64,000 bases of DNA from Gemmatimonadaceae bacterium (GTDB taxonomy: Bacteria; Gemmatimonadota; Gemmatimonadetes; Gemmatimonadales; Gemmatimonadaceae), in contig DASXKV010000050.1 in assembly GCA_036496605.1 (NCBI GenBank), positions 1 through 64,000 of the forward strand, written 5' to 3'. A model generated the notes under the pieces. It was not told where the DNA came from and ran no database searches. It was given only the letters and a program-made list of their open reading frames with translations. Shown piece after piece: positions 6,669-30,108 of the stretch; the stretch's first letter is position 1, and each line of letters begins with the position of its first letter. Both the position numbers and the translations under genes were made by a program.

Positions 6669-6669
6669 G

Positions 6670-11418: not shown

Positions 11419-12696
11419 ATGGTCAATCAGTTCTTGGGACCCCTTGCGCCGCCGTCCCGCCCAGATGTGAATCGGTCGAGGTTCAGTCACGTTGCGCGTG
11501 TAAACTCGATCGATGTGGCCCGCGGCGCGGCGATGTTCTTCGTCTGTCTATCGCATTTTACTGGCGCTTACCTCTGGCAGACCGGGATGAGGGCCAACGA
11601 TTTCCTGGTGACGGTGAGCATGATCGCGTCGCCGAGCTTCGTTCTCATCAGCGGAATGATGTTCGGCTTTCTTCGCGTCTTGAATCCAGTGGATCTGCCG
11701 CATCTGCGAATTCGTCTTCTGGATCGTGGCGTTTTCCTGTTAGTGATTGGGCATTTTCTACTCGCGGTGTCCCAGCTTCGGCGGAGTACGATGACCGAGG
11801 CGTATTACGGGAGCTTTCTGACTGATGCTCTGGCCGTGGCAATCATGCTTGGGCCGCGCATAGTCGACGTAAGTCGCGGACCGCTTCGAATCGCCATCGC
11901 GATATCGCTCTATTGCGCATCCTGGCTCATGCTGGCTCGCTGGCACCCGAGCGGGTCGGGTGCTTTGCTCATTCAGCGGTACGTCATCGGTTCACTGCCT
12001 TCCGAAATCGCGGCTCCGCGAACACTGGTTTTCCCCCTGCTGCCATGGCTGTCAGTCTATCTACTGGGCACGGTACTCGGCGAGCACGTTGGATATTTCT
12101 ATCGCCGTCGTGAAGCGCATCGGGCACGACGCCTGTTCTTGCTGGTCGGTAGTGGGTGCATGCTCCTCGGTACAATCACCTATGTCGTCACCCGATACCT
12201 CGGGCCAGTTCACTCGTTGGTGTCGCGCTCAATGCTCGCAGTACTGTTGACGAGTCCAACTCTGAAGTTCCCACCCGGTCCGGCGTACATCGCCTATTTC
12301 GGCGGTTCTGGGCTGGTGTTCATGTGGCTGGTGCTCGAGCTGGAAGCACGCCGACGACTACCGTTGCTGACGGAGTGGCTGCGCCGCGTCGGTTACGCTT
12401 CTCTCCCCGTGTTCTTACTGCAGGGCTTTGTGTACTCCGCAGTCGTTCGATCCGCGAATCTGCCCTACAGCGCGTGGTGGCCACTGCTCTTTCTGTTCTC
12501 GCTCGTACCGATGTGGGCGCTCGCTAGCGTATGGTCTCGTGCGGATGCGAATCGACTGCTGACGGTAGGTATCACTGCCTGGCTCGAACGTCAGTCGCAC
12601 CCGGCGGTCGTTCGAGCTTCTCGTTTGGCCCGAGTTTCCCGCCCTGGACTCAAGGCAATCAGCAGTCTAACGGCCTACGTTCGCGCGCGATCCTAG
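11419..12696 (+). CDS. Multi-pass membrane acyltransferase (DUF1624/OpgC-like)
   Basis: The 425-residue protein has about ten hydrophobic segments. After a soluble tail comes NSIDVARGAAMFFVCLSHF, the typical first helix of the acyltransferase-3 / DUF1624 / OpgC group. The conserved Asp, Arg and His are in place. Members move acyl groups across or onto sugars at the membrane, for example acetyl or succinyl groups onto exopolysaccharides. The location between deacetylase and tyrosine-kinase genes fits decoration of the polymer. Exact donor and acceptor are unknown. It converges on the autokinase gene. Confidence 0.75.
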   Translation: MVNQFLGPLAPPSRPDVNRSRFSHVARVNSIDVARGAAMFFVCLSHFTGAYLWQTGMRANDFLVTVSMIASPSFVLISGMMFGFLRVLNPVDLPHLRIRLLDRGVFLLVIGHFLLAVSQLRRSTMTEAYYGSFLTDALAVAIMLGPRIVDVSRGPLRIAIAISLYCASWLMLARWHPSGSGALLIQRYVIGSLPSEIAAPRTLVFPLLPWLSVYLLGTVLGEHVGYFYRRREAHRARRLFLLVGSGCMLLGTITYVVTRYLGPVHSLVSRSMLAVLLTSPTLKFPPGPAYIAYFGGSGLVFMWLVLELEARRRLPLLTEWLRRVGYASLPVFLLQGFVYSAVVRSANLPYSAWWPLLFLFSLVPMWALASVWSRADANRLLTVGITAWLERQSHPAVVRASRLARVSRPGLKAISSLTAYVRARS

Positions 12697-12704
12697 TGGC
12701 TAAG

Positions 12705-12729
12705 GGAGCATAAGGGGTAATCGTGCTCC
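12705..12729. terminator. Inverted repeat between convergent genes
   Basis: GGAGCA at 12705-12710 pairs with TGCTCC at 12724-12729 around a 13-base loop, between the ends of the acyltransferase and autokinase genes. There is no clear T-run, so terminator function is only suggested by position. Confidence 0.3.
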
Positions 12730-12786
12730 TCTCAGCGATTCGTAGTCCCCGACTGGCGTTCGCACACGGCGAGTCGCAGACGCTAT

Positions 12787-15243
12787 TTACCGTGGCCACG
12801 ATCGATAATTGAAGACGGCGGAGCGCTCCGCTGGTTCATCCTCGGCAGTCGTGAGCATGTCGTCCTCGTCGTGTATCGCGTATCCGGGAAGATACGCATA
12901 CTCCGTATTCAGGCCGCCAGCGGGCTGTATGTCGTTGATCACTGCACCGACTACGTTCACGGGGAATCGTTCGAGCGATTCAAGTCTCTGTCGAGCAATC
13001 TCGCCGTCGGTTTTCGCGAGGCGGACGACAAACAGGGCGTTTCCCGTCGACACACAGAGGGCGTAAGGATCCATCCCGGCAGCCAAAGGCGGGCTATCGA
13101 TCAAGATGACATCATAGTCCGCCTGCAACGTCTTCATGAGCTGTTGGAATGCCACCGATGTGAGAAGCTCCGGCGCCGAGGTAAGCCGCGAGCCGCTAGG
13201 CAGAAGCGTTAGGCTCGGCTCAGACGTCGGGCGAAGGCATTCGTTCAGCGGGACAGTGCCGCGCAGTACGTCCACAAGACCAGGTCGCCGATCGGTCGCG
13301 AATGTCGTGTGCAGACGGCCGCGTCGGAGATCTCCATCGACGAGCAGTGTTCTGAACCCGCCGCCAGCGAAGGAGAGCGCGAGGTTGGCGCTCACGAGAG
13401 ATTTTCCCTCTCCCGGGCCAGCGCTCGTGACGGTCAGCATCAGCTGACGGTCATTCGTCGCTGCGTAGCTGACGTTCAAGCGTAGCAGTCGAAAGGACTC
13501 GATCAGCTGCATCACGTCGAGTGGCTTCGGAGTGCGTCGCTGCGCGGCGTGCGGCACCGCACCAATGACGTTCAAGCGCAGATTCTGAGTGACCTGATGG
13601 GTGTAACGAATACGCTTATCGAGCCGATCTAGCACGAGGGCAAGAAGGACCGCCGCAAGCAATCCGCCGGCGATGACCATCAAGCCCAATTGTCGGCCGC
13701 GGTTCAGGATCGGGAATTCGGGCATGGCTGCTGAGTCCAAGACGGCAAGATCCGGCTCGACGCTCAGCTCCGCGAGATGCGCTTCTTCATAGCGCCCTTG
13801 GAGCATTCCATACAGCTGCCCTCGGGCCTCGGCGTTACGCGTCAGCCGAACCTCTTCGATGGTGCGCGACGGAATCTCTTTCAGACTGGCGGACCCGGTG
13901 CCGACCTCGCTGGCGAGATCGGTTTCTCGCCGCCGCAGCTGGTCGACGACCGTTGTCACTGCACGAGGGATCTCGCGGTCCTTGAGCTGAGCGATGGCTG
14001 CACGAGCGTCCTTCACACCCTGGTAGCTGTCGGTAAATGCCGCCTGCGCATTGCGAAGCTCGGTGCTGCGTTTTGTGTACTCCTGAAGGAGACTGCTGAT
14101 TTCCTGTGTATTAATGTCCGTCGGCAGCACCTGCCACATGGCAGATACGTCGACACGGCCTGCTTTGACATCGTTGAGCGTTTCCTCTAGTACGCCGCGC
14201 TCATGGGACGTGTTCTCGAGCGTGAGCTTGAGATTGAAGTAATTGGTAATTGCCGGATTGCGCGTGATGGCCACGCCACCATTGATTGGCGTTCCTGCCT
14301 CCGACGGAAGCGTGATCGTCTCCATTCGGAAGCGCTCGAGTGCATCGTCCGCGGTTTGCAGTGCCTTGCCTGCATACGCCAACTGCGTTTCAAGAGCCTC
14401 ACGCACGTCCGTCAGATTTCGGCGCTTCAACTCCCCGGCCGTCAGGACAAGATGGCGAACGACGGAGTTGAGCGTTCTCGTTACGAGCCAGGCGTCCGGA
14501 CCCGCAACATAGACATGCATGATGTTCCCCTCTCGTGGGACCACCGAGCGAATCTGCTCACGGAGTTGTTGCGATGCCTGGCGCGGGGTATACAGAGCAA
14601 AGCTGACCGTTCCAGCGTTCAGGAGGGCTGTCGTGTCGGGAGACCAACGAAGGCCAACCGCTCCACCGATGGAGTCCGCTATCGTTCCGCGCTCCACGAT
14701 TTGCTCGTGCCCTGCTTTTGTGATGCTCAGGGTGTAGCGTCTCGTGACGCTATCGACGTTCAACGTATACAGGCCGGGACGCACCACGTCGTTGACGTCC
14801 ACGATCGAGAAGAGCGAGTTGTTTCGTGGATCGAGAGGTCGGACGTACGTGTGCAGTTCGCGGACAACCTGTCCGAGTACGGCATAGCTAGTCAAAAGAT
14901 CTCCCCAGGAACTCGAGGGCAGCAGCGCGGCAGCGCGCACGGGCCCGGCGCGTTGCTGGCCATCTTCCGACGGTGAAATCCAGACCTTCGCTTCTGGCTC
15001 ATAAACGGCCGAAAACCGGCCGTGGATCGCGAAGGCAGTTATTCCAGAGACGATAGCAATCGAGAGCAAGAGCCATTTGTATCGCAGCATCGCTGCGACT
15101 GAACGGCGGAGGGCAAGTCGCAAATCATTGCTAGGATCCTCTGCGTCCGGCCCAGCGTAGGCCGGCTCCATCGATCGTTGAGCAGGAGGGACAGCCCGTT
15201 GTATCGAATTGTCTTTCCGATGTGGCGCTTCTGAATTGAGCAT
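12787..15243 (-). CDS. Wzc-like polysaccharide co-polymerase with tyrosine autokinase domain
   Basis: From ATG 15243 the protein has about 818 residues. A TTG at 15327 is a longer alternative. Order of parts: one membrane helix near residue 60 (WLLLSIAIVSGITAFAI), a large extracytoplasmic Wzz-type domain with coiled-coil, a second helix (LGLMVIAGGLLAAVLLALVL), then a cytoplasmic BY-kinase. The kinase has Walker A SAGPGEGKSLVSANLA near residue 610, Walker A' LLVDGDLRRG and Walker B ILIDSPPLA. The C-terminal tail has clustered tyrosines (TEYAYLPGY, NYRSW), the expected autophosphorylation sites. Such proteins set polymer length and couple export to a phosphorylation cycle. No partner phosphatase or Wza channel is visible in the window. 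Confidence 0.9.
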   Translation of the reverse strand: MLNSEAPHRKDNSIQRAVPPAQRSMEPAYAGPDAEDPSNDLRLALRRSVAAMLRYKWLLLSIAIVSGITAFAIHGRFSAVYEPEAKVWISPSEDGQQRAGPVRAAALLPSSSWGDLLTSYAVLGQVVRELHTYVRPLDPRNNSLFSIVDVNDVVRPGLYTLNVDSVTRRYTLSITKAGHEQIVERGTIADSIGGAVGLRWSPDTTALLNAGTVSFALYTPRQASQQLREQIRSVVPREGNIMHVYVAGPDAWLVTRTLNSVVRHLVLTAGELKRRNLTDVREALETQLAYAGKALQTADDALERFRMETITLPSEAGTPINGGVAITRNPAITNYFNLKLTLENTSHERGVLEETLNDVKAGRVDVSAMWQVLPTDINTQEISSLLQEYTKRSTELRNAQAAFTDSYQGVKDARAAIAQLKDREIPRAVTTVVDQLRRRETDLASEVGTGSASLKEIPSRTIEEVRLTRNAEARGQLYGMLQGRYEEAHLAELSVEPDLAVLDSAAMPEFPILNRGRQLGLMVIAGGLLAAVLLALVLDRLDKRIRYTHQVTQNLRLNVIGAVPHAAQRRTPKPLDVMQLIESFRLLRLNVSYAATNDRQLMLTVTSAGPGEGKSLVSANLALSFAGGGFRTLLVDGDLRRGRLHTTFATDRRPGLVDVLRGTVPLNECLRPTSEPSLTLLPSGSRLTSAPELLTSVAFQQLMKTLQADYDVILIDSPPLAAGMDPYALCVSTGNALFVVRLAKTDGEIARQRLESLERFPVNVVGAVINDIQPAGGLNTEYAYLPGYAIHDEDDMLTTAEDEPAERSAVFNYRSWPR

Positions 15244-15611
15244 TTCCAGTCCAACGTCAGTATGGCGAGCGCGCGCTGTCTGGCCGCGCGAACCTCGTGA
15301 TGCATAGTTCGACGATGGGACAGGCAAGACTCAGCCCGCGCTCCAAGGTGTTGTCGCCCTTGGCCAAGCGCCCTGGCCAACGGTGACAGTGTAGTTCCGA
15401 CGCGACAGCCTTGTCGCGCATTCGCCGCTTCTGGCTATTCACCGAATGGCGGTTATTGAACGGTGTACCGGTTCTAGCGAGAAAACGATTGATTTGGACG
15501 CTTCAGCGCTAGGCACACCTTTCGCGAACGCAGAGCCCGCTCTCCGCTTCTTCACGCGGATTTTCGTAGGCGCACACCAAGCACGGCCCACTACTAGTAA
15601 CCAATCAAACT
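15244..15611. promoter_or_regulatory. Divergent promoter region, autokinase / acetyltransferase
   Basis: About 370 bases lie between the chosen starts of two divergent genes. An inverted repeat AGTAAC at 15596-15601 and GTTACT at 15614-15619 overlaps the putative TTG start of the plus-strand gene and may be an operator. No convincing -35/-10 pair was found. Confidence 0.3.
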
Positions 15612-16913
15612 TTGTTACTTGATCGAGCTTTTCCGGCTACCCATCTCAACCGAGCGGAACTCAGCGCCGATCGCACGCACCGCGTCGGCCACGATCTCGC
15701 TGCGTCTCGACGCCGTCCAGCAACTCGGCTGCACTGCCAGCTAATCAGCGACGCGCAGAGCTGGGATTTGTACCGGGCGCAGATCGATGACCTGCTTTCG
15801 ACCACGTCTCTCTCGAATGCCCATTCCACCACTGCCTGGCATCGCGCCTGGTGGCAGTCATTTGCCGGTGATCGTTCCTTACACATAGGCTTGTGGTGGC
15901 AGGGGGCGGAGCTCGTCGGATACGCGCCGCTCATGCTCACGACCGAGCATCTATGGGGCGTCCCCCGCCAAGTCCTCCGGTTCGTAGGGGAGGGCATATC
16001 GGACTATGCGGATCTCTACAGCAGAGACGATCGACGAGACGTCACCGTCGCGATGGTGAAGGATATCGTCGAAACCTGGGACTGGGACGAGCTGCAACTT
16101 TCCAACGTGCGCGCCGGGTCGAGAACGATTCCCGCATTCGAACAGTGCCAGTCTCGTCGATACTTCGCACGCGTTGGTCCGGTTGAGCGTTGTCTATACA
16201 TCGATCTTCGAAACCGAACCTTTGACCAGTACTACCGAGGCCTCAGTCGAAATCATCGACGCGAGCTGCAGAAGCGTCGACACAAGCTCGATGCGCTCGG
16301 GAAGTGGTCCGTACATTTCGAGCAGAACGCGCCGGCGGAAGCGTTGTTCGAAGAATTCCGCGCGCTACATACCGCGCGCAGCGAAGCAATGGGGTGGACA
16401 TCGCTGTACGATCTCGCCGGATTTCGCGAGTTCTTTGTTGAGCTCATGCAATCAAAGCGACAGGACATCGAGGTACTCTGCTCGACGCTACGACACGAAC
16501 AGAAGTTGATGTCGTACACACTGGGCTTTGTTCACAGGGGCGTCTACCACCACTGGAACATTGGTTTCGATGCAGCCTACGAAGCCATTGCGCCCAATAA
16601 GCTCCATCACCAGTTCCTCATCGAGGAGTGCTTTTGTCGGCGCTATGTGGAGTTCGATTTCATGCGCGGCGCGTACGAGTACAAGTACAAATGGACCGAC
16701 GCTGTCCGCGAGAACTACGGCATCCGGTTCTTGCGGCGGCATGGATGGCGACGTGTCATGAACTCCGTTCTCTGGCTCCAGGAGCGCACGCCAGACTCTC
16801 TTGCCTCACGGCTCATTGATGGGACTCGAGCGGCCTTGCAAACGCTGAGAGTTGGCGACGCAAAAAGCGCGAAAGTGACAGCGCCAGCAGGCGTACGGGG
16901 AGTGCAAACGTAG
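15612..16913 (+). CDS. GNAT-fold acetyltransferase, CelD/FemAB-like, of an exopolysaccharide locus
   Basis: The 433-residue protein has the CelD-type acetyltransferase layout: an N-terminal half with WHRAWWQSFAGDRSLHIGLWW and LVGYAPLMLT, and a C-terminal half with SRNHRRELQKRRHKL, FRALHTARSEAMGWTSLYD, and DFMRGAYEYKYKW, which is characteristic of the group. These enzymes are common in exopolysaccharide clusters and are thought to acetylate sugar or lipid-linked intermediates. The start is uncertain: TTG 15612 is the only initiation codon seen before the conserved region and it has no Shine-Dalgarno. The gene precedes the sugar transferase on the same strand. Confidence 0.75.
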   Translation: MLLDRAFPATHLNRAELSADRTHRVGHDLAASRRRPATRLHCQLISDAQSWDLYRAQIDDLLSTTSLSNAHSTTAWHRAWWQSFAGDRSLHIGLWWQGAELVGYAPLMLTTEHLWGVPRQVLRFVGEGISDYADLYSRDDRRDVTVAMVKDIVETWDWDELQLSNVRAGSRTIPAFEQCQSRRYFARVGPVERCLYIDLRNRTFDQYYRGLSRNHRRELQKRRHKLDALGKWSVHFEQNAPAEALFEEFRALHTARSEAMGWTSLYDLAGFREFFVELMQSKRQDIEVLCSTLRHEQKLMSYTLGFVHRGVYHHWNIGFDAAYEAIAPNKLHHQFLIEECFCRRYVEFDFMRGAYEYKYKWTDAVRENYGIRFLRRHGWRRVMNSVLWLQERTPDSLASRLIDGTRAALQTLRVGDAKSAKVTAPAGVRGVQT

Positions 16914-17127
16914 AAGAACCCAACTGAGTTGTGGTGCGGGCGCGTGCGAATTGTGGGGGCTGATCCACATCAGGTAGTCGCGATATCGCCAGCGGTCGGT
17001 TCTCGAGACGCAGAAGCGACGACCTTGCAAAGAGTTATGCGTCGAGCGACGACCGGTGGGATGCGAGCATGCGGAGTGCAGAGGGAGCGGCCGAGCAACT
17101 CTCTGTCCGCCCCGCTACTTGAGGCAC

Positions 17128-17895
17128 ATGGAAGCCGAAGCCGCCTTCGCCTCCGCATCTGCTGAGCCGTTCGTCCCGCACTATACACCGATTCTCGCGA
17201 CGCGACAACGCAGGAGCGCACGCGAGCCGGCGGCCCTGTGCATGCCCAGGCGGCGAGTCGAATGGGCGAATCGGGCAGTCAATATCTTGCTCGCCGTGCT
17301 TGCGCTCATCGTGCTGAGCCCACTGATAGCTCTCATCGCCGCCCTTATCAGACTGACGTCGCCGGGTCCGGTGATTTACACCCAGGATCGGGTGGGTGTG
17401 AATCGCAGACGCCGCCGCACGCAGGCTCTTTACGATCGCCGAGGAGTGGACGCGGGAGGCCTCGTCTTTACGATTTACAAGTTCCGCACGATGCGTAACG
17501 ATGCGGAGCGGTGTTCTGGAGCCGTGTGGGCGACGGCCAATGACCCCCGCATAACCAGGATTGGTCGGATCCTGCGTCAATATCGCATCGACGAACTTCC
17601 CCAGCTGCTCAATGTCATTCGCGGTGACATGAACATTGTCGGACCGCGACCCGAGCGGCCAACAATTTTTGCAGATTTGCGAGCGCGAATCACGGACTAT
17701 CAACAGCGTCAGCGTGCGCGTCCGGGCATTACCGGCTGGGCCCAAGTCAACAGCGCGTATGACGCCTCTCTGGACGACGTTCGCGCGAAAGTGCGTTACG
17801 ATCTGGAATACCTGGAGCGCCAGTCGCTCGCCGAGGACGTCAAGATCATGCTACGTACCGTCCCGGTGATGTTGTTCAAGCGCGGGGGCTTGTAG
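17128..17895 (+). CDS. Undecaprenyl-phosphate sugar phosphotransferase (bacterial sugar transferase)
   Basis: From ATG 17128 (TGAGG upstream) the protein has 255 residues. It has one hydrophobic hairpin (VNILLAVLALIVLSPLIALIA) and a catalytic domain with SPGPVIYTQDRVGVN, FTIYKFRTMRNDAE, RIGRILRQYRIDELPQLLNV, GDMNIVGPRPERP and RPGITGWAQV. This is the WcaJ/PglC-type core that loads the first sugar-1-phosphate onto undecaprenyl phosphate and starts repeat-unit assembly. It lacks the long N-terminal membrane domain of WbaP/WcaJ. Upstream in-frame ATG 17056 is unlikely. It converges with the deacetylase gene. Confidence 0.9.
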   Translation: MEAEAAFASASAEPFVPHYTPILATRQRRSAREPAALCMPRRRVEWANRAVNILLAVLALIVLSPLIALIAALIRLTSPGPVIYTQDRVGVNRRRRRTQALYDRRGVDAGGLVFTIYKFRTMRNDAERCSGAVWATANDPRITRIGRILRQYRIDELPQLLNVIRGDMNIVGPRPERPTIFADLRARITDYQQRQRARPGITGWAQVNSAYDASLDDVRAKVRYDLEYLERQSLAEDVKIMLRTVPVMLFKRGGL

Positions 17896-17958
17896 TCCGC
17901 GCCATCGCTCGATCGTGGGCAAGTGGCGATCGCAATCGTCGATCGCCTCGCTCGGTGA

Positions 17959-18837
17959 TCAGGAAGCGAACGAGGACGTCGGCGACTCTATCTGCAGTCG
18001 GCTATGTCCTTCTGCGAGCCGCGCCGCAATTGAGGTAAATCTGAACTCGCGAAGCAATCGGTCGAGGCGAGCCTGAGTGCCCTTGAGTCCGCGATAGTGT
18101 CGGAGCTGGCTCAGCGGACCTACACGAACGCGTGGCTGTTCCGCGTCGAGCTCCCACGGGTGAATGTAGAACACGCCCGGAACGCCTTGGGTATCGTGCT
18201 CCCGAAAGGCGCGCTGCACAATCGAGTAAGGAAACTGGCGAAAGTATCCGCCGCCGGCGGCGGGGATGCGGAACGATCCCCATAGGCTCGTCGCGAGTGG
18301 AAACTCGATCAGGGTTCCGCTGGCACAGTGCAACAAGTGTGGAATCGGCGGAGCACCGGGCCAACCATAATTAGAGCGGCGAATCGGGAAGATGCTCGAG
18401 TCGTAGACGTATCCCTCCTCGAGCAGCACGTCGAGCGCAAACTGCGAATCAGGAGTGATCGAGAAGCTCGGCGCTCGGTAGCCTGTCACCGGGCGTCCGC
18501 AGATGTCCTCGAGGAGACTCTTCGAAGCACGGATGTCTTCGCGGAATTCCTCAGGCTCGAGTGAAGTCACTCGATAATGCCACCAACCATGTGACGCGAC
18601 TTCGTGCCCTGCCTCTGCAATGCGTCGCACGACGTGAGGATGGCGATCAGCGACCCACCCCAGTATGAAGAACGTCGCCGAGGCTCCGTGTTCGCTCAAC
18701 AACTCCAAGACAGAATCAACATTCCGAGCAACTCGGCTCGGTAGGTCTTGCCACTCGGTACGACGGATCACGCCTTCGAACGCGTGGACCTGGAAATACT
18801 CTTCGACATCAACTGTGAAGATGTGCGCCGTCGACAT
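17959..18837 (-). CDS. Polysaccharide deacetylase of the XrtA/exosortase-associated type (DUF3473)
   Basis: The 292-residue protein starts FTVDVEEYFQVHAFE, diagnostic of the CE4 subfamily that travels with EpsH/XrtA-type exopolysaccharide loci. It continues with SEHGASATFFILGWVADRHP, HEVASHGWWHYRV (metal histidines), GYRAPSFSI and the DUF3473 tail (GGYFRQFPY, YIHPWELD). The predicted role is deacetylation of the exported polymer or precursor. No exosortase gene or PEP-CTERM protein is seen in the window, so the rest of such a system would be elsewhere or absent. It lies downstream of the lasso-type cluster in the same direction, separated by about 270 bases. Confidence 0.87.
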   Translation of the reverse strand: MSTAHIFTVDVEEYFQVHAFEGVIRRTEWQDLPSRVARNVDSVLELLSEHGASATFFILGWVADRHPHVVRRIAEAGHEVASHGWWHYRVTSLEPEEFREDIRASKSLLEDICGRPVTGYRAPSFSITPDSQFALDVLLEEGYVYDSSIFPIRRSNYGWPGAPPIPHLLHCASGTLIEFPLATSLWGSFRIPAAGGGYFRQFPYSIVQRAFREHDTQGVPGVFYIHPWELDAEQPRVRVGPLSQLRHYRGLKGTQARLDRLLREFRFTSIAARLAEGHSRLQIESPTSSFAS

Positions 18838-19105: not shown

Positions 19106-20380
19106 TTACGCGATTATCTCGGACAGGTAACGCCCCGTTCGTCGAAGCTGCAGGAGCGCGGATTCCGGTGACCCATCCTCGGCGAGACGCGTTTTCTCGT
19201 GAAAGGCAGACAAAAGCTCCAATGACACGAGCCAAGGACGAACAGCACCATGGCCGCAGCGCTCTGGCTGCATAGCCATTGTCCAAAGTGCCCGATTGAG
19301 TCGCGCTGAGGGACAGCCGGCGTCATTGCGCGCCAGTTCCCTCACGAAATGCCGCGTCAGAGAGCGTCGCACGAGTTCCGGCAAACGAGGCCGCAATTGA
19401 TGCAAGACTCCGTCTGGTACTGGTAGCGCCGATAACTCACGACCGAGCCGTAGAGTCCAGTAACAGCACGTTGAAGCACCCCAGCGCGACGCAGTCCGTG
19501 CAAAATCGGACCAGTCGAGCACTCCTTTGGTCGCGAGAGCCGCCAGATCCCGGAACGCATGCCATGCCCCCAGGTTCAGCATGTGGCCCCACGCGAAGTG
19601 AATTGCAATGTGGACGGCATGATGCGATGGGTGCATAACGAGGGCATGACCGGCACCCACCTGCACGCGACGGGCGGCACTCCATAGTTCGTCGCGTGTG
19701 AATCGAAAAGGATGGCCGGCAGCCATGAGCGCGCGATGAATCTCGAGACGCAGGCCGCTCGAGACCGCGTCCCTCAACGGCGGCAGATGATGATGCGCGT
19801 CGTAGCTCCGGTCACCCGGCAGTTCCGGATCGAGCTGCCATCCCGACTGGAGCATGATCGAGCGCGCGTCGTCAGCGCGATCGGGCGGCACGAGCAAGTC
19901 GATATCTCGCATGGGCCGCGCAGCGAAGGAGCAATAAACGGTGTACGCCAGCGCTCCGCCTTTCAGGAGTAGCGGCTCGATGCCGGCTCGGTTCAAAGCA
20001 ACGACCGACTGCTCCAGTCGCTCCTGCAGACGTCGCATGCGGAACTCGCGATCGAGCGAAAGAATCGCCACTTGGCGCTCGACGTTGACCGGAATCGTCT
20101 TGCCGGCATCGCCGGCAAGACACTTCCGGAGCGCGATGAGCGCATTTTCCTCCGACGCAAACTGGACGAGCCGGTTCCAGTCTCCTACGCTGCCGAAATC
20201 GATCGAACGGCGTGTTCCTCGGCCAGGCTGAGCGAGTCGGAAAACGAGATCCGACTCGACGTCCTCGGCTCCGGCAGGCGTCAGCTGCCCCGCGATGTCA
20301 GGGTCGTTAGCCTTGCGAATCCAAGGGAAGCGGCGGGTCATCTCGAAGGACGCGAGAGCGGATTGAGTGGGAGCGCGCAT
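19106..20380 (-). CDS. Nucleotidyltransferase-family protein of the RiPP cluster
   Basis: The 424-residue protein has the core of the NTP_transf_5-type family: LLLKGGALAYTVY followed by ARPMRDIDLLVPPDRADDA, where the Asp-x-Asp binds metal. Homologues occur in lasso-peptide clusters that also have an HPr-kinase-like enzyme. In the pseudomycoidin cluster the equivalent protein is reported to add further groups to the phosphorylated peptide, so a late tailoring step is a reasonable guess. It is the last gene of the minus-strand cluster, about 246 bases after the PqqD-like gene. ATG 20341 is an alternative start. Confidence 0.72.
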   Translation of the reverse strand: MRAPTQSALASFEMTRRFPWIRKANDPDIAGQLTPAGAEDVESDLVFRLAQPGRGTRRSIDFGSVGDWNRLVQFASEENALIALRKCLAGDAGKTIPVNVERQVAILSLDREFRMRRLQERLEQSVVALNRAGIEPLLLKGGALAYTVYCSFAARPMRDIDLLVPPDRADDARSIMLQSGWQLDPELPGDRSYDAHHHLPPLRDAVSSGLRLEIHRALMAAGHPFRFTRDELWSAARRVQVGAGHALVMHPSHHAVHIAIHFAWGHMLNLGAWHAFRDLAALATKGVLDWSDFARTASRWGASTCCYWTLRLGRELSALPVPDGVLHQLRPRLPELVRRSLTRHFVRELARNDAGCPSARLNRALWTMAMQPERCGHGAVRPWLVSLELLSAFHEKTRLAEDGSPESALLQLRRTGRYLSEIIA

Positions 20381-20454: not shown

Positions 20455-20640
20455 CTAACGGCGAATGATATCGAGAAGACGTTGCGCACTGATGAGTTGA
20501 CGACCACGTCCACCAACCCGGAGAGCAGATGGCGCAATGGAGGGCAGTTCGAACTGTGGCAACACCGCAACGCATCCAGCAGCGATCGCAACGGTCATTT
20601 CGAGAGCGCTCGCCGCACAGACCGCGTCATACAAGGTCAA
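20455..20640 (-). CDS. Possible small protein between B1 and nucleotidyltransferase
   Basis: A 61-codon frame starts at TTG 20640, overlapping the end of the PqqD-like gene. An ATG at 20598 would give 47 residues. The product is partly hydrophobic (MTVAIAAGCVAVLPQFELPS) with a basic tail ending LLDIIRR. Its stop is CGT TAG inside a copy of the dispersed octamer, a pattern also seen at three other gene ends here. No Shine-Dalgarno or homologue is recognised, so it may be a chance frame. Confidence 0.3.
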   Translation of the reverse strand: MTLYDAVCAASALEMTVAIAAGCVAVLPQFELPSIAPSALRVGGRGRQLISAQRLLDIIRR

Positions 20641-20935
20641 CCAGCTTGAGGGATATCATCTCGCCTAAGAAGGCGAGAACGGCGCTTTCGCACTCGGGCT
20701 CGTGGATGTCGCAGTATTCGGCGAGCAGCGCGTCGCGCACCTCGAGCACCGTGCACGGCGCCTGAATAGTTCTCCAGATGTTGGCTGCGACTTCATTTAG
20801 GCCATAGTACTCTCCGTCCCGCATACTCAGGAGGACAGCCTCGTCCGCCACGTTGCAGAAAACCTGCTGCGGCGACGCGCGCACCACCGTCTCGAGACCG
20901 AGACCAAGGCTCTGCATGCTGCTCACTATGCTCAT
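20627..20935 (-). CDS. PqqD-like RiPP recognition protein (lasso B1)
   Basis: The 102-residue protein has the PqqD/RRE winged-helix pattern: VRASPQQVFCNVADEAVLLSM, DGEYYGLNEVAANIWRTI, then a helical C-terminus (VRDALLAEYCDIHE). In lasso and related pathways the separate B1 protein binds the leader peptide and delivers the precursor to the B2 protease. The ATG at 20935 overlaps the stop of the kinase gene in an ATGA arrangement, which makes it the best start. An upstream in-frame start at 21013 would overlap the kinase gene by 82 bases and adds unlike sequence. This pairing of a kinase and PqqD-like protein resembles the HPr-rel-A systems described in family databases. Confidence 0.85.
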   Translation of the reverse strand: MSIVSSMQSLGLGLETVVRASPQQVFCNVADEAVLLSMRDGEYYGLNEVAANIWRTIQAPCTVLEVRDALLAEYCDIHEPECESAVLAFLGEMISLKLVDLV

Positions 20936-21927
20936 TCTACGCTGCTCCACTCGATGATCTGGCTCACAAGCGGACCCAATCGGGCGACATCTCGCACGGG
21001 ATACAGCGTCCATACTGGCACGGTTGCGGCCAACGCTGCGGAGGCAGCGAGCTGAGTGCCCGCGCCGCGAAGTCCGACGAGAGAGGGCGGCAACTTTGTC
21101 TGATGGGCCAACGCGATCGTCGCTTCACTAGGCGAAAGCAAGTTGCGACGCACGGTTGGAACGTCGGGCGCGCCCTGGACGGGTGAGAGAGCGTATATCG
21201 CGCGAAGTGGGGTCGGTTCGGCCGCCACGGCATGGCCGGCAAAGCCAGTTGCCGTGGTCTTCACGCCAGGAATGAGCGTTTCGCAGATCGCACCTAACGG
21301 CAACGCGGTCGTCATATCCGCCCAGAGGCGTACGCTCGCGACGCCAGGGCGAATGGTCGCGGGTGGACCGGCGCTCACGACAAGCAAATCGTCACCGATG
21401 AGTCGAGCGCCAGCGGCTGTCAGGGCGACCGCGAGCGTGGATTTGCCAAAGTGCTTCGGGCCGACGAACGCCACGGCCGAATCGCCAATCGCGACTGCGC
21501 TTCCGTGCAAGCACAGGAAGCCCGCAAGCTCCAGCGCAAGGGAAATTGCGGGACCGATGATGATGCTCCGCACCAACTCGGGTAACGCGTCGGCACGATA
21601 GTACCAGACGATTCTCGACCCGTCGCGAGCGATGTCGAACGTCCCGGCGTGCGAGTACACGAGTCGCAGCCCGTTGCACGAACGCCAGAGCTCATATCGC
21701 TCTTCGCGAATCTGTCGTTCACCGACTAGAACCCATTCCTCAGTGGACGGTGCGCGGTCGTCCACGACAACCGACCAGTCGGGCAACCCGCCAATCGTCG
21801 AGATCGACAGTTCGGGAAATTCGATCTCGGAGCGCAGTGTTCCGCCAAACACTGAATAGTCGCGGATGCCGGCAGGCTCGCGAATCGTGGAGGCGTCAAC
21901 TGGAGGCAAGATGGCGGCAGTCGTCAC
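20932..21927 (-). CDS. HPr-kinase-like tailoring kinase of the lasso cluster
   Basis: The 331-residue protein shows the HprK C-terminal core: LHGSAVAIGDSAVAFVGPKHFGKSTLAVAL, where GPKHFGKS is the P-loop, and GARLIGDDLLVV with the paired aspartates. It lacks the N-terminal HprK domain and is one of the HprK-related kinases found in RiPP loci. In the paeninodin family such a kinase phosphorylates the C-terminal serine of the lasso precursor. The precursor here ends in Ser50, which fits. The start is GTG 21927, three bases after the B2 stop, and the stop overlaps the B1 start, so the genes are tightly coupled. Confidence 0.85.
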   Translation of the reverse strand: MTTAAILPPVDASTIREPAGIRDYSVFGGTLRSEIEFPELSISTIGGLPDWSVVVDDRAPSTEEWVLVGERQIREERYELWRSCNGLRLVYSHAGTFDIARDGSRIVWYYRADALPELVRSIIIGPAISLALELAGFLCLHGSAVAIGDSAVAFVGPKHFGKSTLAVALTAAGARLIGDDLLVVSAGPPATIRPGVASVRLWADMTTALPLGAICETLIPGVKTTATGFAGHAVAAEPTPLRAIYALSPVQGAPDVPTVRRNLLSPSEATIALAHQTKLPPSLVGLRGAGTQLAASAALAATVPVWTLYPVRDVARLGPLVSQIIEWSSVE

Positions 21928-21930
21928 AGC

Positions 21931-22434
21931 TCAGCGGAGTTCAGCGTGTGATAGGGAGTGTACGTTCGCGTCGCTCGGAAGCTCTGGAAGACGCACGAGA
22001 GAATGAATGCCCTCCCCGCCGAGGATAGCTTTGCCGTCCCGCTCGACCCATGCATGCGCGCGCAGCGCTCCGTCAGTGGTGCGCGCGACGCCGAGGCAGA
22101 GTTGGACGTGGTCGCCAATGCAACCGAGTAGGAGCTTCGCGGCGATCGCCTGCGTGAGACAGGTCGCGCGCGGAATTCGCCGAGCGACAGCTTCGACAGC
22201 CCAAATCATCGCCGAGTCGCTCGTTATGCGCGTCGACACTCGAGAGCCAGATTGACGCCCGAGCCGGCCAACCAGGCGGACGATTACTGCCGGGGGCAGA
22301 ACCCAGAGCGCGATTCGGATGGCCGCAACCAGAGGCGCGGCAAGCATCAGTGCGCCCCACTGCCGCAACTCGAGCTGCCTTATAGTTCGCAATCGAAGCA
22401 TCGCGCTGATGTGCGATCTGTAGAGTCCCATCAC
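21931..22434 (-). CDS. Lasso peptide leader peptidase B2 (McjB C-terminal-like, transglutaminase fold)
   Basis: The 167-residue protein has a hydrophobic N-terminal half and a Cys-His-Asp protease core: RATCLTQAIAAKLLL holds the cysteine, and AHAWVERDGKAI holds the histidine and aspartate. This is the cysteine-protease part of McjB, which removes the leader from the precursor. B1 is a separate gene downstream, so the B function is split. The first codon is GTG 22434 followed at once by ATG 22431. No Shine-Dalgarno is visible. A strong hairpin lies 15 bases upstream. Confidence 0.87.
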   Translation of the reverse strand: MMGLYRSHISAMLRLRTIRQLELRQWGALMLAAPLVAAIRIALWVLPPAVIVRLVGRLGRQSGSRVSTRITSDSAMIWAVEAVARRIPRATCLTQAIAAKLLLGCIGDHVQLCLGVARTTDGALRAHAWVERDGKAILGGEGIHSLVRLPELPSDANVHSLSHAELR

Positions 22435-22512: not shown

Positions 22513-22665
22513 CTACGACGCGGAGCAGACGATTGCCTGCCCCTCGAACGTGAAGCCGTCAGACGTGCCAAAGGTCTTGTCGCAGCCTCCTTGGGTCGCT
22601 GACTCGAACGTGCCGAACCGTCGGACCTCAGGTGAGGCCCATTTTCTTTTTCCTGCTGCTGCCAT
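22513..22665 (-). CDS. Lasso-type RiPP precursor peptide (A gene), 50 residues
   Basis: The 50-residue peptide begins at ATG 22665 with a strong Shine-Dalgarno (GGAGGG, 5-6 bases upstream) and ends at TAG 22513-22515. Leader residues 9-26, WASPEVRRFGTFESATQG, match the B1 recognition pattern YxxPxLxxxGxFxxxTxG at every spacing, with Trp for Tyr and Val for Leu. By the conserved Thr(-2) rule the core starts at Gly26: GGCDKTFGTSDG, then FTFEGQAIVCSAS. Cys28 and Cys47 could form a disulfide. The acids are Asp29, Asp36 and Glu41; none is at core position 7, 8 or 9. If cleavage were before Cys28, Asp36 would be position 9 and the tail GQAIVC would resemble GYAIVC of class I siamycin-type lassos. 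The C-terminal Ser50 suits the HPr-like kinase. It lies between the cyclase and B2 genes. Confidence 0.88.
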   Translation of the reverse strand: MAAAGKRKWASPEVRRFGTFESATQGGCDKTFGTSDGFTFEGQAIVCSAS

Positions 22666-22708
22666 TGTTACCCTCCGTCAGGGGTGGATGTGACCGCAAC
22701 GCGTGCGG

Positions 22709-22810: not shown

Positions 22811-24760
22811 TCATGCGGCTTCCGGCGAAAGCGCCCCGACGTCGGAGCGCGCCCGGTGACTGCGGTCTGCGAACTGCGACAACCATTCTCCAAGCACTAT
22901 GGTGCGGAAGAGCGTCAGATCCTGCGCATTCCTGGCGTCTTGCGCGTTCGCCGCCTGATATTGGCTACGGAGCGCGCACAGCCGATCGATGCGTACGTAT
23001 GGCGCGAGTGCGGCCTCGTCGAGCATTTCAGACATACTTGCGTCGACCGCACGGAACTGTCGATGAAAATTCGGGGAGAGGTTCGACTTCGTCGTTCGCC
23101 ACTGTATGGCGGGCGGCAGAACTCCATTCATGGCTCTGCGAAAGAGCAGCCGCGGCCAACCTCCGCCGAACTTCTGCTCCTCTGGCAGACCAACACAGAA
23201 CTCGATGAGGCGCCGGTCGAAGAAGGGGTAACGCGGCTCAACGCCAAATGCCGCAGCCGATTTATCCGCGATCTCCAGTGTCAGCTGATACAGCGGCTGC
23301 GAGAGCCCCTCGACATGGGCTTCTCGCTCTGAACGAATCGCGGGGCGGGCGCGCCCTAACGAGCGCGAAAGCATTGGCCGAATACCGCGTGTCAGGGCGA
23401 GATTAGCGCGGGACAAACCAAAGCGTCGGCCGACGTTCCGCGCGGCCTCGAGCCAAGACACATAGTGTCCCTCCCTCGCCAAGTCCTCCAGGTGAGGCAG
23501 GACATAGTTATCGACGGCACGTTGCGCGGACTTGCCGTGGTGGGCGCTGAAAGCGAGAAGCTCGGCCTCGAGCGCGTCCCATTGGCGGGCACGTGCCAGC
23601 CCCGTTAGGCGGCCAAATCCATGGCCGACGGCGGAGTCCCCATCGAAGCCATCGAGAAGCACGCGAACGCCGGTCTCGCCGGCGGCTTCGTACATCCCCC
23701 AGTGCAGGTACAGATTCGGCGCGAAATATGGCTCGTCCAGATGCCAGATGATTTTGCGCAGATCGCGCAATGGGCTGATTTGGTCGCCGCGCACGAAATG
23801 CGGACGCACGCCCCCAGACTGTACGACTGAGTCGACGAATGAGCGCTCATCGATGAGACGAAGCTCTCGCTCGGGTAAAGTCGGAAAGATGACCGAGAAG
23901 GTCTGCAGTGGCGGCGCCGTGCGCGATCGGAGGTGCCGTGCCATGCACACCACCGACGAGGAGTCCAACCCACCGCTGAGCGTGGCGCCGATAGCTTTCG
24001 CGCATCGCGATCTGGCGCTTACCGCTCTTGCGAATATGTCGCGGAACGCTTCCGCAAATTCCTCGTCAGTGCGATAACGCACGTCAGCCGCGGATTCGGG
24101 ACTCCAGAACCGTCGCACGATCACGCGATCGCGCGTGACGACCATCGTGTGCGCCGCCGGCAGCCGCATGAGATCACGATACATCGTTCGCGTTCGCTCT
24201 TCGTGCCGACCGCTCATGAAGAGAGACACTTCGTCGGGATCGATTGTCGGCGTTACGTCAGCGAGAGTGAACAAGGATTTCAGCTCAGTCGCGAACGCAA
24301 ATACCCGATCGTTTCGGAAGTAGTAAAAGGGCTTGACGCCCATTGGATCGCGCGCGCAGAAGAGCGTGTCCGCGCGGCTATCCCAAATGGCGAACGCAAA
24401 GTCTCCGATGAGACGATCGACGCACTCGCAGCCCCACCGTTCGTATGCAGCGAGGATGATCTCGCTGTCGCTCGCGCGATACGACAGTGAAGGTCGGAGC
24501 GTCGAAAGCAGCTCGTCCCGATTGTCAATTCTGGCGTCGGCGACCAGAACGAATTGGCCCGGGGAGCGCACCACGGGCTGAACTTCAGTCACCGATTCGA
24601 GTGTCGTAACGAGTAATCGATGGGCGACGGCCACGTCGTTTCCAGACCACAGGCCATCTCGATCGGGTCCCCGGTGCGCGAGCGCGGCCGACATCGCTGC
24701 GATCTTGTCGCGCGCTGCCGGCTGACCATCGAGGTGGAAGATCCCGCAGATGGCGCTCAT
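22811..24760 (-). CDS. Lasso cyclase C (asparagine-synthetase-like macrolactam synthetase)
   Basis: The 649-residue protein has the class II glutaminase-like domain (CGIFHLDG, LAHRGPDRDG, LIGDFAFAIWD, CARDPMGVKPFYY) and the ATP-dependent synthetase domain with PPi-loop SGGLDSSSVVCMA, then DGFDGDSAVGHG. The N-terminus is MSAICGIF: the cysteine is at position 5, not position 2, so the N-terminal nucleophile needed for glutamine hydrolysis is missing. That is usual for lasso cyclases, which adenylate an Asp/Glu side chain and close the ring on the core's N-terminal amine. An AsnB-type amidotransferase is the alternative, but the precursor, B1 and B2 genes downstream argue against it. It is the first gene of the cluster. 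Confidence 0.87.
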   Translation of the reverse strand: MSAICGIFHLDGQPAARDKIAAMSAALAHRGPDRDGLWSGNDVAVAHRLLVTTLESVTEVQPVVRSPGQFVLVADARIDNRDELLSTLRPSLSYRASDSEIILAAYERWGCECVDRLIGDFAFAIWDSRADTLFCARDPMGVKPFYYFRNDRVFAFATELKSLFTLADVTPTIDPDEVSLFMSGRHEERTRTMYRDLMRLPAAHTMVVTRDRVIVRRFWSPESAADVRYRTDEEFAEAFRDIFARAVSARSRCAKAIGATLSGGLDSSSVVCMARHLRSRTAPPLQTFSVIFPTLPERELRLIDERSFVDSVVQSGGVRPHFVRGDQISPLRDLRKIIWHLDEPYFAPNLYLHWGMYEAAGETGVRVLLDGFDGDSAVGHGFGRLTGLARARQWDALEAELLAFSAHHGKSAQRAVDNYVLPHLEDLAREGHYVSWLEAARNVGRRFGLSRANLALTRGIRPMLSRSLGRARPAIRSEREAHVEGLSQPLYQLTLEIADKSAAAFGVEPRYPFFDRRLIEFCVGLPEEQKFGGGWPRLLFRRAMNGVLPPAIQWRTTKSNLSPNFHRQFRAVDASMSEMLDEAALAPYVRIDRLCALRSQYQAANAQDARNAQDLTLFRTIVLGEWLSQFADRSHRARSDVGALSPEAA

Positions 24761-26520: not shown

Positions 26521-29500
26521 ATGTCCGACACCAAGCTGCATCCATATCTCAAAGCATTGAGCGAGCGAGTTCTCATCTTCGACGGTGCGATGGGAACGAA
26601 CATACAATTGCACCATCCGACCACGGAAGACTTTGGCGGGAGGTCGTTGGAAGGGTGCAACGATCATCTGGTCCTTACGCGGCCAGACATCATCCAGAGC
26701 ATCCACGAGTCATTCTTGGAGGTCGGGTGCGACGTCGTGGAGACTTGCACCTTCCAGTCGACGCCTCACCGGTTGCGTGAGTGGGGAATCGAGCACAAGA
26801 CGCGTGACCTGAATGTCGCAGCGGCGCGCATCGCGCGTGCTGCGTGCGTGAAGTTCGGCACTCCGGAGCGCCCGCGATTCGTGGCTGGCTCGATTGGCCC
26901 GACCGGGATGCTGCCATCGAGCAGTGATCCCGTGCTCTCGAACATCACCTTCGCGCAACTCGCGGACACCTACTACGCCCAAGCGAAGTATCTCGTCGAA
27001 GGTGGCGTGGACGTTCTGCTCGTCGAGACGGCGCAGGACATTCTCGAGGTCAAAGCAGCGCTCGCGGGATTCGAGCGTTTGTTCGTGGAGCTCGGCCGCC
27101 GCGTGCCGGTACAGGCGCAGGTGACGCTCGACACGAGTGGCCGGATGCTGCTGGGCACCGATATCGCCAGTGCCCTAACGACGCTCGAGTCGCTTCCAGT
27201 AGACGTGATCGGGCTGAATTGCTCCACCGGGCCGGAGCACATGCGGGAGCCGATCAGGTTCCTAACGACTCACGCGTTGCGGCCGATATCGTGCATTCCG
27301 AACGCGGGACTTCCGTTGAATACGGGGACGGGTGACGCAGTCTATCCGCTCGAACCGGGACCAATGGCAGAGATGCTCGGAGAGTTCGTCGAGAAGTTCG
27401 GCGTCCGCGTTATAGGCGGCTGTTGCGGGACTCGACCTGAACACTTGCACGCAATCGTCGAGCGGGTGCGCTCGGCAGAGGGTGGAGGACAGCGGGCATT
27501 GGGTCCGAGAGCGACGTCTTCACCCTCCGCCCACAGCCCCCTACACTCTGCCCGCGTAAGCAGCGCCATGCGCGCCACCGACCTGCGCCAGGATCCGCCG
27601 CCGCTCTTGATCGGAGAACGAGTTAACTCGCAGGGCTCGAGGAAGGTTAAGCGTTTGCTCCTGGCCGACGACTACGAGGGGATCGTCGACGTCGCGCGCG
27701 AGCAGGTGGACTCGGGAGCTCACGTGCTCGACGTTTGCGTGGCACTCACGGAGCGCGCGGACGAGGCCGAGCAGATGGCCAAGGTCGTGAAACTCCTCTC
27801 GATGAGCGTCGAGACGCCGATCATGGTCGATTCCACCGAGGCGAATGTGATCGAGGGCGCGCTCGAGCACATTCCCGGACGCGCCATTATCAACTCGATC
27901 AACATGGAGAATGGCCGTCAGCGCATCGATGCGGTGGTGCCGCTCGCCAAGAAACATGGCGCGGCACTGGTCGCACTCACCATCGACGACATCGGCATGG
28001 CGAAAACGCGCGACCGAAAGCTGGAGGTCGCGCAGAAGATCTACGACATCGTTGTCGGCGAATACGGCATGCAGGCGGAGGACCTGATTTATGACGATCT
28101 GACCTTCACGCTCGCGACGGGCGATCCCGAGATGGCGAATTCCGCAGTCGAGACGATCGAAGGAATTCGGCTGATCAAGCGGGAGCTGCCGGGGGTTTTT
28201 ACTTCGTTAGGCGTCTCGAATGTGAGCTTTGGGCTGGCGCCCGAGGCACGAGCCGTCGTCAATTCGGTGTTCCTGCATCATTGCGTCGAGGCCGGGCTCG
28301 ACATGGCGATCGTCAACCCCGCGCATGTGAAGCCGTACGCCGAGATCGAGGCGAGCGAGCGCGCGCTCGCGGACGATCTGATCTTCAACCGGCGTCTCGA
28401 CGCGTTGCAACGGCTGATCGAGGGGCTGGGGACCATCGGCCAGGGGCTCGGGACAGCGGCGGTAGTCGAAGATCCGACTTCCGACATGTCACCGGAGCAG
28501 CGTGTGCACTATATGGTGGTGCATCGTAAGAAGGACGGAATCGAGGAGGCACTCGATGCCGCGGGCGTACGCGCGAACCCCGTGCGTGTGCTCAACGATG
28601 TTCTGTTGCCGGCGATGAAGGAAGTCGGCGACAAGTTCGGCGCTGGGGAGCTGATTCTGCCGTTCGTGCTCCAGAGTGCGGAGGTCATGAAGCGAGCGGT
28701 TAAGCATCTCGAGCAATTTCTCGAAAAAGCAGAAGGCTATACGAAGGGCAGAGTCGTACTCGCGACGGTGTATGGCGACGTTCACGACATCGGCAAGTCG
28801 CTGGTGAACACGATCCTCTCGAACAACGGCTACACCGTGTACGACCTGGGCAAGCAGGTGCCCGTGAATACGATCATCGAGAAGGCGATCGAGGTCGACG
28901 CGGATGCGATTGGGTTGTCGGCTCTGCTCGTCTCGACGTCGAAGCAGATGCCGCTTTGCGTTCAGGAGCTCGACAAGCGCGGACTCGATATCCCAGTACT
29001 GATCGGCGGCGCGGCGATCAATCGACGCTTCGGACGGCGTGCGTTGTTCGTCGACGGGGAGCGGGCGTACAGTCCAGGCGTCTTCTACTGCAAGGATGCG
29101 TTCGAGGGGCTCGAGACGATGGACGTTCTTCAAAACGACGACGCAGCGCGCCGCGCCGCGTTTGTCACGAAACTTCTCGACGACGCTCGGAACGACGTCT
29201 TCCTGCGGACGACGGTTGGCAAGGACGTCGCAGCCGGCGACCAGGGGGGAGCGCGGAGCAACGTCTCCCAGGATCACCCTGTACCGAAGGCTCCCTTCCT
29301 GGGCGTTCGGACACTTCGCCAGGGGGACATCCCACTCGACGAGGTCTTCGCGCTGCTCGATCTCGACGAGCTGTATCGGCTGCAGTGGGGAGCCCGCGGC
29401 TCCGGTGCGCAGTATGAAGCGACCGTACGGAACGAGTTCGAGCCGGTGCTGTCGCGCCTAACGGCTGAAGCGAAGAGGGAGGGATGGCTCGAGCCAGAGG

Positions 29501-30108
29501 CGGTGTACGGGCTTTTCCCGGCGCAGTCGCGAGGGAACGACCTCCTGATTTACGATGCCGCCTCGTATGCGCGCGACGGCGCGACGCGCGAGATCGCCCG
29601 CTTCCATTTCCCGCGTCAGGAGGGGCGTGAGCGTTTGTGCATCGCCGACTACTTTCGATCGACTGACTCGTCGGACGTGGATGTCGTCGGACTGCAGGTC
29701 GTGACGGTCGGCGACGAAGCGAGTCGCAGATTCCACGCGCTTCAAGCGGCTGGAGAATACGCCGAGGCATTTTACGTCCACGGCCTCGCCGTCGAGACGG
29801 CGGAGGCGCTCGCCGAATGGCTCCATCGGCGATTACGCCGTGAGCTGGCAATTCCTGGTGGCCGGGGCAAGCGATACTCGTGGGGTTACGGCGCCTGTCC
29901 CGATCTCGATGACCACGCGACAGTCTTCAAACTTCTCCCTGCCGCCGAGGAGCTTGGCATAGAGCTGACGAGCGCGTTTCAATTCGTTCCGGAGCAGAGC
30001 ACGGCCGCCATCATCGTGCACCATCCCGAGGCGAAGTACTACGCGGTCCGCGCCGTGGCCGGCGAGGGCTCCGAGCGGCGCGAGCTCTCCACCCTCTCGA
30101 GCAAATGA
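26521..30108 (+). CDS. metH: Cobalamin-dependent methionine synthase
   Basis: The 1195-residue protein is a full-length MetH. Residues 1-310 are the homocysteine/zinc domain (LIFDGAMGTNIQ, GLNCSTGPEH and GGCCGTRPEH give the zinc cysteines). Residues from about 340 are the methyltetrahydrofolate domain (LIGERVNSQGSRKV, DVCVALTERADE, INSINMENG). The cap and B12 domain follow, with the DxHxxG motif in YGDVHDIGKSLV near residue 755. The last 300 residues are the SAM/flavodoxin-dependent reactivation domain (KRYSWGYGACPDLDDHATVF). Between the first two domains lies a roughly 26-residue low-complexity insert that coincides with an imperfect palindrome. The stop overlaps the start of the next gene (ATGA). 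A SAM-II riboswitch precedes the gene. Confidence 0.96.
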   Translation: MSDTKLHPYLKALSERVLIFDGAMGTNIQLHHPTTEDFGGRSLEGCNDHLVLTRPDIIQSIHESFLEVGCDVVETCTFQSTPHRLREWGIEHKTRDLNVAAARIARAACVKFGTPERPRFVAGSIGPTGMLPSSSDPVLSNITFAQLADTYYAQAKYLVEGGVDVLLVETAQDILEVKAALAGFERLFVELGRRVPVQAQVTLDTSGRMLLGTDIASALTTLESLPVDVIGLNCSTGPEHMREPIRFLTTHALRPISCIPNAGLPLNTGTGDAVYPLEPGPMAEMLGEFVEKFGVRVIGGCCGTRPEHLHAIVERVRSAEGGGQRALGPRATSSPSAHSPLHSARVSSAMRATDLRQDPPPLLIGERVNSQGSRKVKRLLLADDYEGIVDVAREQVDSGAHVLDVCVALTERADEAEQMAKVVKLLSMSVETPIMVDSTEANVIEGALEHIPGRAIINSINMENGRQRIDAVVPLAKKHGAALVALTIDDIGMAKTRDRKLEVAQKIYDIVVGEYGMQAEDLIYDDLTFTLATGDPEMANSAVETIEGIRLIKRELPGVFTSLGVSNVSFGLAPEARAVVNSVFLHHCVEAGLDMAIVNPAHVKPYAEIEASERALADDLIFNRRLDALQRLIEGLGTIGQGLGTAAVVEDPTSDMSPEQRVHYMVVHRKKDGIEEALDAAGVRANPVRVLNDVLLPAMKEVGDKFGAGELILPFVLQSAEVMKRAVKHLEQFLEKAEGYTKGRVVLATVYGDVHDIGKSLVNTILSNNGYTVYDLGKQVPVNTIIEKAIEVDADAIGLSALLVSTSKQMPLCVQELDKRGLDIPVLIGGAAINRRFGRRALFVDGERAYSPGVFYCKDAFEGLETMDVLQNDDAARRAAFVTKLLDDARNDVFLRTTVGKDVAAGDQGGARSNVSQDHPVPKAPFLGVRTLRQGDIPLDEVFALLDLDELYRLQWGARGSGAQYEATVRNEFEPVLSRLTAEAKREGWLEPEAVYGLFPAQSRGNDLLIYDAASYARDGATREIARFHFPRQEGRERLCIADYFRSTDSSDVDVVGLQVVTVGDEASRRFHALQAAGEYAEAFYVHGLAVETAEALAEWLHRRLRRELAIPGGRGKRYSWGYGACPDLDDHATVFKLLPAAEELGIELTSAFQFVPEQSTAAIIVHHPEAKYYAVRAVAGEGSERRELSTLSSK
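27475..27551 (+). repeat. Imperfect palindromic insert inside metH (interdomain linker)
   Basis: GCAGAGGGTGGAGG at the left and CCCCCTACACTCTGC at the right form imperfect inverted arms. The segment encodes an Ala/Ser/Arg-rich linker right after the zinc domain. The same words occur at the equivalent place in the neighbouring fused gene (31011-31098). Confidence 0.55.

Follow-up and report, generated by a model that had tools for sequence, protein, structure and literature searches.

A lasso-type precursor peptide of Gemmatimonadaceae with a proposed ring aspartate beyond the known ring sizes and a lysine six residues before it

Our analysis of a 64-kb stretch of Gemmatimonadaceae DNA (the window, by which we mean the whole of that stretch) revealed a biosynthetic system that is lasso-type by its enzymes, yet whose peptide is not a canonical lasso by the ring rule. 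The peptide is almost certainly the product of a genuine lasso-type precursor gene, and its presumed ring-forming Asp lies too far along the core for any known lasso ring. A Lys stands six residues before this Asp (position D-6), and we tentatively favor the reading in which the side chain of this residue, Lys5, replaces the N-terminal amine in ring closure on Asp11, a real possibility that falls a little short of an even chance. With slightly more reserve, the same reading might extend to a branch of lasso cyclases from Gemmatimonadota, Rokubacteria, Cyanobacteria and a methanogen, which would use the Lys amine at D-6 as nucleophile and give lariat-like products whose N-terminal arm is free and varies in length. 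What goes beyond the sequence pattern in this reading, we infer. The cluster comprises the following features, with core numbering counted from the presumed cut after T-x.

22513-22665, minus strand: precursor gene A, 50 aa, ATG start, sequence MAAAGKRKWASPEVRRFGTFESATQGGCDKTFGTSDGFTFEGQAIVCSAS
22671-22676, minus strand: Shine-Dalgarno GGAGGG, 5 nt upstream of the precursor ATG
22591-22665, minus strand: leader, residues 1-25 (W9-P12-V14-G18-F20-T24), cleavage presumed after Q25
22516-22590, minus strand: core, residues 26-50, GGCDKTFGTSDGFTFEGQAIVCSAS
22576-22578, minus strand: core Lys5 (residue 30), at D-6, proposed nucleophile
22558-22560, minus strand: core Asp11 (residue 36), proposed acceptor
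22811-24760, minus strand: lasso cyclase C, 649 aa, asparagine-synthetase-like (NF033535, 688 bits, cut-off 525)
21931-22434, minus strand: B2 leader peptidase, transglutaminase-like (NF033537, 82 bits, cut-off 33)
20932-21927, minus strand: HprK-like kinase, Walker A GPKHFGKST, weak matches
20627-21013, minus strand: B1/PqqD-like RRE (PF05402, 60 bits), overlapping the 3' end of the kinase gene
19106-20380, minus strand: NTP_transf_5 nucleotidyltransferase-like protein (125 bits)

The first-pass annotation of this DNA had described a 50-residue minus-strand gene with a strong Shine-Dalgarno between C and B2, and the ATG start and the GGAGGG placed 5 nt before it bear this out; the gene lies 145 nt downstream of C and 78 nt upstream of B2, all on the minus strand. 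The same annotation had the leader fit the lasso motif at all seven anchors (W-P-V-G-F-T-G in this peptide), which holds exactly for five of them (P, G, F, T, G) and by conservative replacement for the other two, with W in place of Y and V in place of L. The lasso leader cut comes after Thr at -2, and with these two replacements the leader has the lasso form, WxxPxV...G.F...T-Q with Thr at -2. The strict motif occurs in one short ORF of the window, against 0.05 per Markov-simulated 64-kb sequence. Family searches gave the gene order C, A, B2, kinase, B1, nucleotidyltransferase along the minus strand, so that the full core set claimed earlier is indeed present on one strand; C, B2, the B1/PqqD domain and NTP_transf_5 scored above curated cut-offs, and the kinase match fell below them (HprK_C E 2e-4, HprK_rel_A E 1e-6). 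B2 has candidate Cys, His and Asp residues, and the solved structures nearest to B1 are 9x90, a lasso PqqD chaperone, and TbiB1 (5v1u).

A plain search with the precursor returned nothing in GTDB contigs and nothing in plasmids, and the genus mates G360 and G390 showed no close copy. The closest precursors were reached via the cyclase, whose nearest full-length matches are 42-45% identical: they are the Rokubacterial L162 (YITPQLIVHGTVEEITA-LQNKTYGASDGFLFQGVAITNVS; 42% over 45 aa, single-comparison E 2e-11) and L054 (YVAPELIVHGTVEEITA-DQNKKLGLSDGFLFMGAPISNAS; 40% over 40 aa, E 5e-9). Direct sequence searches led to distant precursors in gemmatimonads, which have the form YQKPRVERFGTFRELTQ-VGFNGTTDGFTICG and lie next to C, kinase and NTP genes. 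The leader motif is kept in the homologues, and the residue aligned with the window D11 is D10 for Rokubacterial homologues and D8 for gemmatimonad ones. The precursor gene is thus conserved across phyla beside C, and where the earlier reading would have fallen had such relatives been lacking, they do adjoin C/B genes in other genomes. We judge the precursor genuine because of its leader motif, its conserved T at -2, the adjacent C, B1, B2, kinase and NTP genes, and these homologues.

The rings of lasso peptides join the alpha-amine of residue 1 to an Asp or Glu at core positions 7-9 (PMC9266682). The window core has three acidic residues after T-x, D4, D11 and E16, all of them outside positions 7-9. 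The product had been proposed to be a lasso or lasso-like macrolactam; the precursor does belong to a complete lasso enzyme set, but a canonical lasso is not supported by this spacing, and a lasso-like macrolactam with a ring closed in some unusual way is the likely product. Two other placements of the ring were rejected. A cut at T31-F32|G33, giving the 9-residue Gly-Glu ring GTSDGFTFE, breaks the leader spacing and uses Glu16, opposite which the Rokubacterial homologues have Met/Gln, and a siamycin-like Cys1...Asp9 ring (CDKTFGTSD) requires a Cys that is not conserved, the homologues carrying Gln there.

The displaced Asp is part of a wider pattern. We defined Lys-module precursors by K-x-x-G-x-x-D with Lys at D-6 and Asp at least 10 after T-x, a definition to which Lys5, Gly8 and Asp11 of the window core conform. 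A blind set was made of precursors adjoining cyclases found by cyclase similarity, chosen regardless of Lys, and the acceptor was set mechanically as the first Asp at position 10 or beyond. Among the 80 precursors left after removal of near-duplicates, 62 had D/E at 7-9 and 15 were shifted, with the first Asp at 10 to 15. Lys occupied D-6 in 14 of these 15 (2.1 expected; p 7e-13 by within-core shuffle, a descriptive value that ignores phylogeny), against 4/62 of the canonical precursors of the set. Arg was never found at D-6 in the shifted precursors (0/15), and 13/15 had Gly at D-3. Adding leader-profile matches gave 99 non-redundant precursors, a combined set whose added part is not blind, because the profile contained Lys-module rows; here 22 were shifted and Lys was at D-6 in 16 of them (2.8 expected), against 6/73 canonical ones (Fisher p 6e-9, again descriptive and ignoring phylogeny). 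The six shifted precursors without this Lys are L177, L178, L187, L217 (Asp at 10), L091 and L180. Two of them, the cyanobacterial L177 and L178, are AFG/MFG-type precursors with Asp at 10 that are otherwise canonical; the L177 precursor sits beside Asp9 siblings, and both may form true 10-residue rings.

The position of the module relative to the leader is loose: Lys floats between core positions 4 and 9 after the leader Thr, while its distance to Asp is constant. Asp is at 11 in the precursor of cyclase L058 and at 14 in that of its sister L156, and the single cyclase of L082 accompanies two precursors, one with Asp13 and the other with Asp15. The leader Thr is at its usual spacing in 15/16 Lys-module precursors. 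Small residues (N, T, S, A, G, D) predominate just ahead of Lys, with Pro there in L155 and L157. In Aphanothece (L166), the precursor MQAEKNQVQQQLKKPYNPPKFTVHGDTKQILESIETTGPAKRCVQKDPGPGDGFGSIPPEA, about 400 nt past the cyclase, has overlapping K9-D15 and K14-D20 and no Thr at -2; here and in L115 further acidic residues leave the acceptor ambiguous. The more distant gemmatimonad cyclases of L222 and L223 likewise have Lys-module cores next to them. The lasso cluster of a methanogen MAG (Methanothrix, L090) has three tandem precursors, and all of them combine Asp10 with Lys4.

The AF2 model of the cyclase C (pLDDT 90, pTM 0.91) matches the folds of TsnB9, asparagine synthetase B (AsnB) and beta-lactam synthetase, and the protein retains SGGLDSSS and the conserved D-G-x-D-G-D residues. 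Its glutaminase domain (MSAICGI) has no N-terminal Cys2, which makes ammonia supply unlikely and points to the peptide itself as the expected source of the amine. The nearest relatives of this cyclase are of the shifted, Lys-module type. Roughly five residues are added before IDER, in an insertion LPxxxLxxIDER (residues 296-303) that is modelled as a short helix (297-303) just past strand 285-291 of the synthetase domain. The window and Rokubacterial cyclases have this insertion, as do most Lys-type ones from cyanobacteria; canonical cyclases largely lack it. We rejected it as a residue set separating the two types: L166, L090 and L048 are Lys-type and lack it, and L094 and, as a variant, L049 carry it, which makes it no more than a marker of lineage.

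In the cyclase phylogeny, the 11 cyanobacterial cyclases, all serving Lys-module precursors, form one clade (SH-aLRT 99), and those of the window, L054/L162, L166, L090 and the gemmatimonad L048 fall elsewhere or without a resolved place. A single clade of the 15 insertion-bearing cyclases, 14 of which have known precursors, was not rejected (AU p 0.53), nor was one of all 18 (p 0.28), and an independent-pairs test gave p 0.25; all three tests are underpowered. The phylogenetic independence of the Lys-module cases is therefore limited.

The window cluster shares its gene kit (A, C, B1 with the RRE, B2, a weakly matching kinase, NTP_transf_5-like), the C-terminal Ser and the YxxPxL..T leader motif with class II lasso peptides that have split B1/B2 and an HprK-type kinase, such as paeninodin and pseudomycoidin; the known cores of these have Asp/Glu at 7-9 from T-x, whereas the window Asp is at 11, with Lys at D-6. 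The gemmatimonad lasso precursors L022-L034, of the same family, share the leader and the GTTDGFT core segment, and the kinase and NTP genes of their clusters are 35-41% identical to those of the window, against only 26-28% for the cyclase; unlike the window peptide, they have Asp at the canonical 8 and mostly no Lys. Lariocidin and triculamin also have a Lys six residues ahead of the ring Asp and a Gly next to Asp, but their ring joins the Ser1 alpha-amine to Asp8 with no arm ahead of the Lys module, whereas in the window four residues separate the presumed cut from Lys, which is at 5 with Asp at 11, a different arrangement from Ser1-Lys2...Asp8. In lariocidin B, Lys2 forms an isopeptide with the C-terminus. 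A Lys-to-Asp/Glu side-chain lactam would be shared with graspetides (microviridin-like omega-amide peptides) if closure on Lys is right; these use ATP-grasp ligases, and the window has an asparagine-synthetase-like lasso cyclase with lasso B1/B2 and no ATP-grasp domain among the proteins of the cluster, which places it outside the graspetides.

The kinase and the NTP_transf_5 protein recur in many of these clusters, with kinase homologues in related clusters 35-41% identical to that of the window. Pseudomycoidin has counterparts of both proteins, which phosphorylate its C-terminal Ser and attach hexoses (PMC9266682). Ser is likewise the last residue of the window peptide, and the kinase probably phosphorylates it; a PsmN-like role is possible for the NTP_transf_5 protein. 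The lasso cluster directly adjoins an exopolysaccharide/XrtA-type gene cluster (4076-18837), with the following members.

4076-5641: flippase-like protein
9999-11138 and 17959-18837: polysaccharide deacetylases
12787-15327: ParA-like AAA protein
15612-16913: FemAB-like acetyltransferase
17056-17895: sugar transferase

On its other flank (26521-32045) lie metH methionine synthase and then a homocysteine S-methyltransferase/MTHFR fusion.

If the ring does close on Lys, B1 would bind the leader, B2 would cut after T24-Q25, and C would adenylate the Asp11 side chain, which would then be attacked by the side-chain amine of Lys5, held at i to i+6 in K-x-x-G-x-x-D. The product would be a side-chain/side-chain lactam of 26 atoms, against 25 in an ordinary 8-residue lasso ring; GGCD would be left as a free arm at the N-terminus, and the C-terminal tail GFTFEGQAIVCSAS may pass through the ring. 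The kinase would probably act afterwards on the terminal Ser, and Cys3 and Cys22 could link arm and tail. Both Cys are in the window core and both are missing from the Rokubacterial homologues, a joint presence and absence hinting that Cys3 stays in the product. Closure on Lys accounts for the constant distance between Lys and Asp, for the lack of Arg at D-6, for an arm of variable length, for the retained Thr, whose normal spacing in nearly all members argues that cleavage is still there, and for the Pro before Lys in L155/L157, since Pro is a poor N-terminal nucleophile. To our knowledge, no lasso cyclase uses a Lys side chain, and searches of the open-access journal literature found no case of Lys-closed lassos or of lasso rings larger than nine residues. 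The six Lys-less shifted precursors count against this reading, as does lariocidin, where Lys2 is six residues before Asp8 and the ring closes via the Ser1 alpha-amine (PMC11451635), so that a Lys can stand at D-6 without being bonded to the Asp.

That example also lends substance to a displaced leader cleavage, which we consider rather unlikely. If B2 or later trimming cut just before the residue preceding Lys, the core would be DKTFGTSD-GFTFEGQAIVCSAS, with an ordinary 8-residue alpha-amine ring and Lys2 as a cleavage or binding signal, as in lariocidin (S1-K2...D8; PMC11451635). The ring would then be of size 8 for every member, matching the canonical relatives L045, L046, L075 and L022-L031, whose Asp is exactly at 8; the mostly small residues ahead of Lys would suit such a cut, and the comparison of L032 (GKSDPGFD8) with L223 (QQGKKDPGAD10) resembles a leader longer by two. 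Yet the leader Thr has not moved, though it would no longer be at -2, and the new site has no conserved residue and would put Pro or Lys at position 1 in some members. It would also have to serve a Lys up to 9 residues away (14 for the second module of L166), the window cluster has no extra peptidase, Cys22 would be orphaned, and the Lys requirement is given no reason.

An enlarged ring from the Gly1 alpha-amine to Asp11, of 11 residues (34 atoms) and so beyond the known 7-9, would keep the cut after T-x as well as the customary nucleophile, and the Lys-less D10 cores of L177 and L178, the former arrayed with D9 siblings, suggest that somewhat larger rings may occur. It is improbable, however, as it needs sizes from 10 to 15 or more among close relatives, with 13 and 15 from one enzyme in L082, leaves Lys at D-6 without a role, and must be set against known systems in which a one-residue change of ring size sharply lowers yield (PMC13352647). 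Least probable, by a small margin, is that a real precursor is not cyclised by C on Asp11, because the cluster is degenerate, the product is only phosphorylated or linear, or Glu16 or Asp4 is used. The window cluster indeed lacks a transporter gene, unlike L054, where an ABC transporter lies between the kinase and NTP genes, and no close copy turned up in the genus mates; but C, B1 and B2 are intact, C keeps its SGGLDSSS and D-G-x-D-G-D residues, and the K/G/D module is kept as far as Rokubacteria at 40-42% identity. The loss of 18 Da proposed earlier as a check on the product cannot by itself separate N-terminal from lysine-side-chain closure, because the products are isomers.

The fixed Lys-Asp module with its floating distance to the leader is the part worth following. 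If the ring closes on Lys, lasso-type cyclases can do without a free N-terminus, and lassos with an N-terminal extension or fusion become possible. Such closure would also explain precursors likely overlooked by the ring-size rules of current mining tools, and would make K-x-x-G-x-x-D after T-x a defined motif for finding more. Under a displaced cut or an enlarged ring, the same precursors would violate either the rule placing T at -2 or the one limiting rings to 7-9, so that any of these outcomes alters a rule in use.
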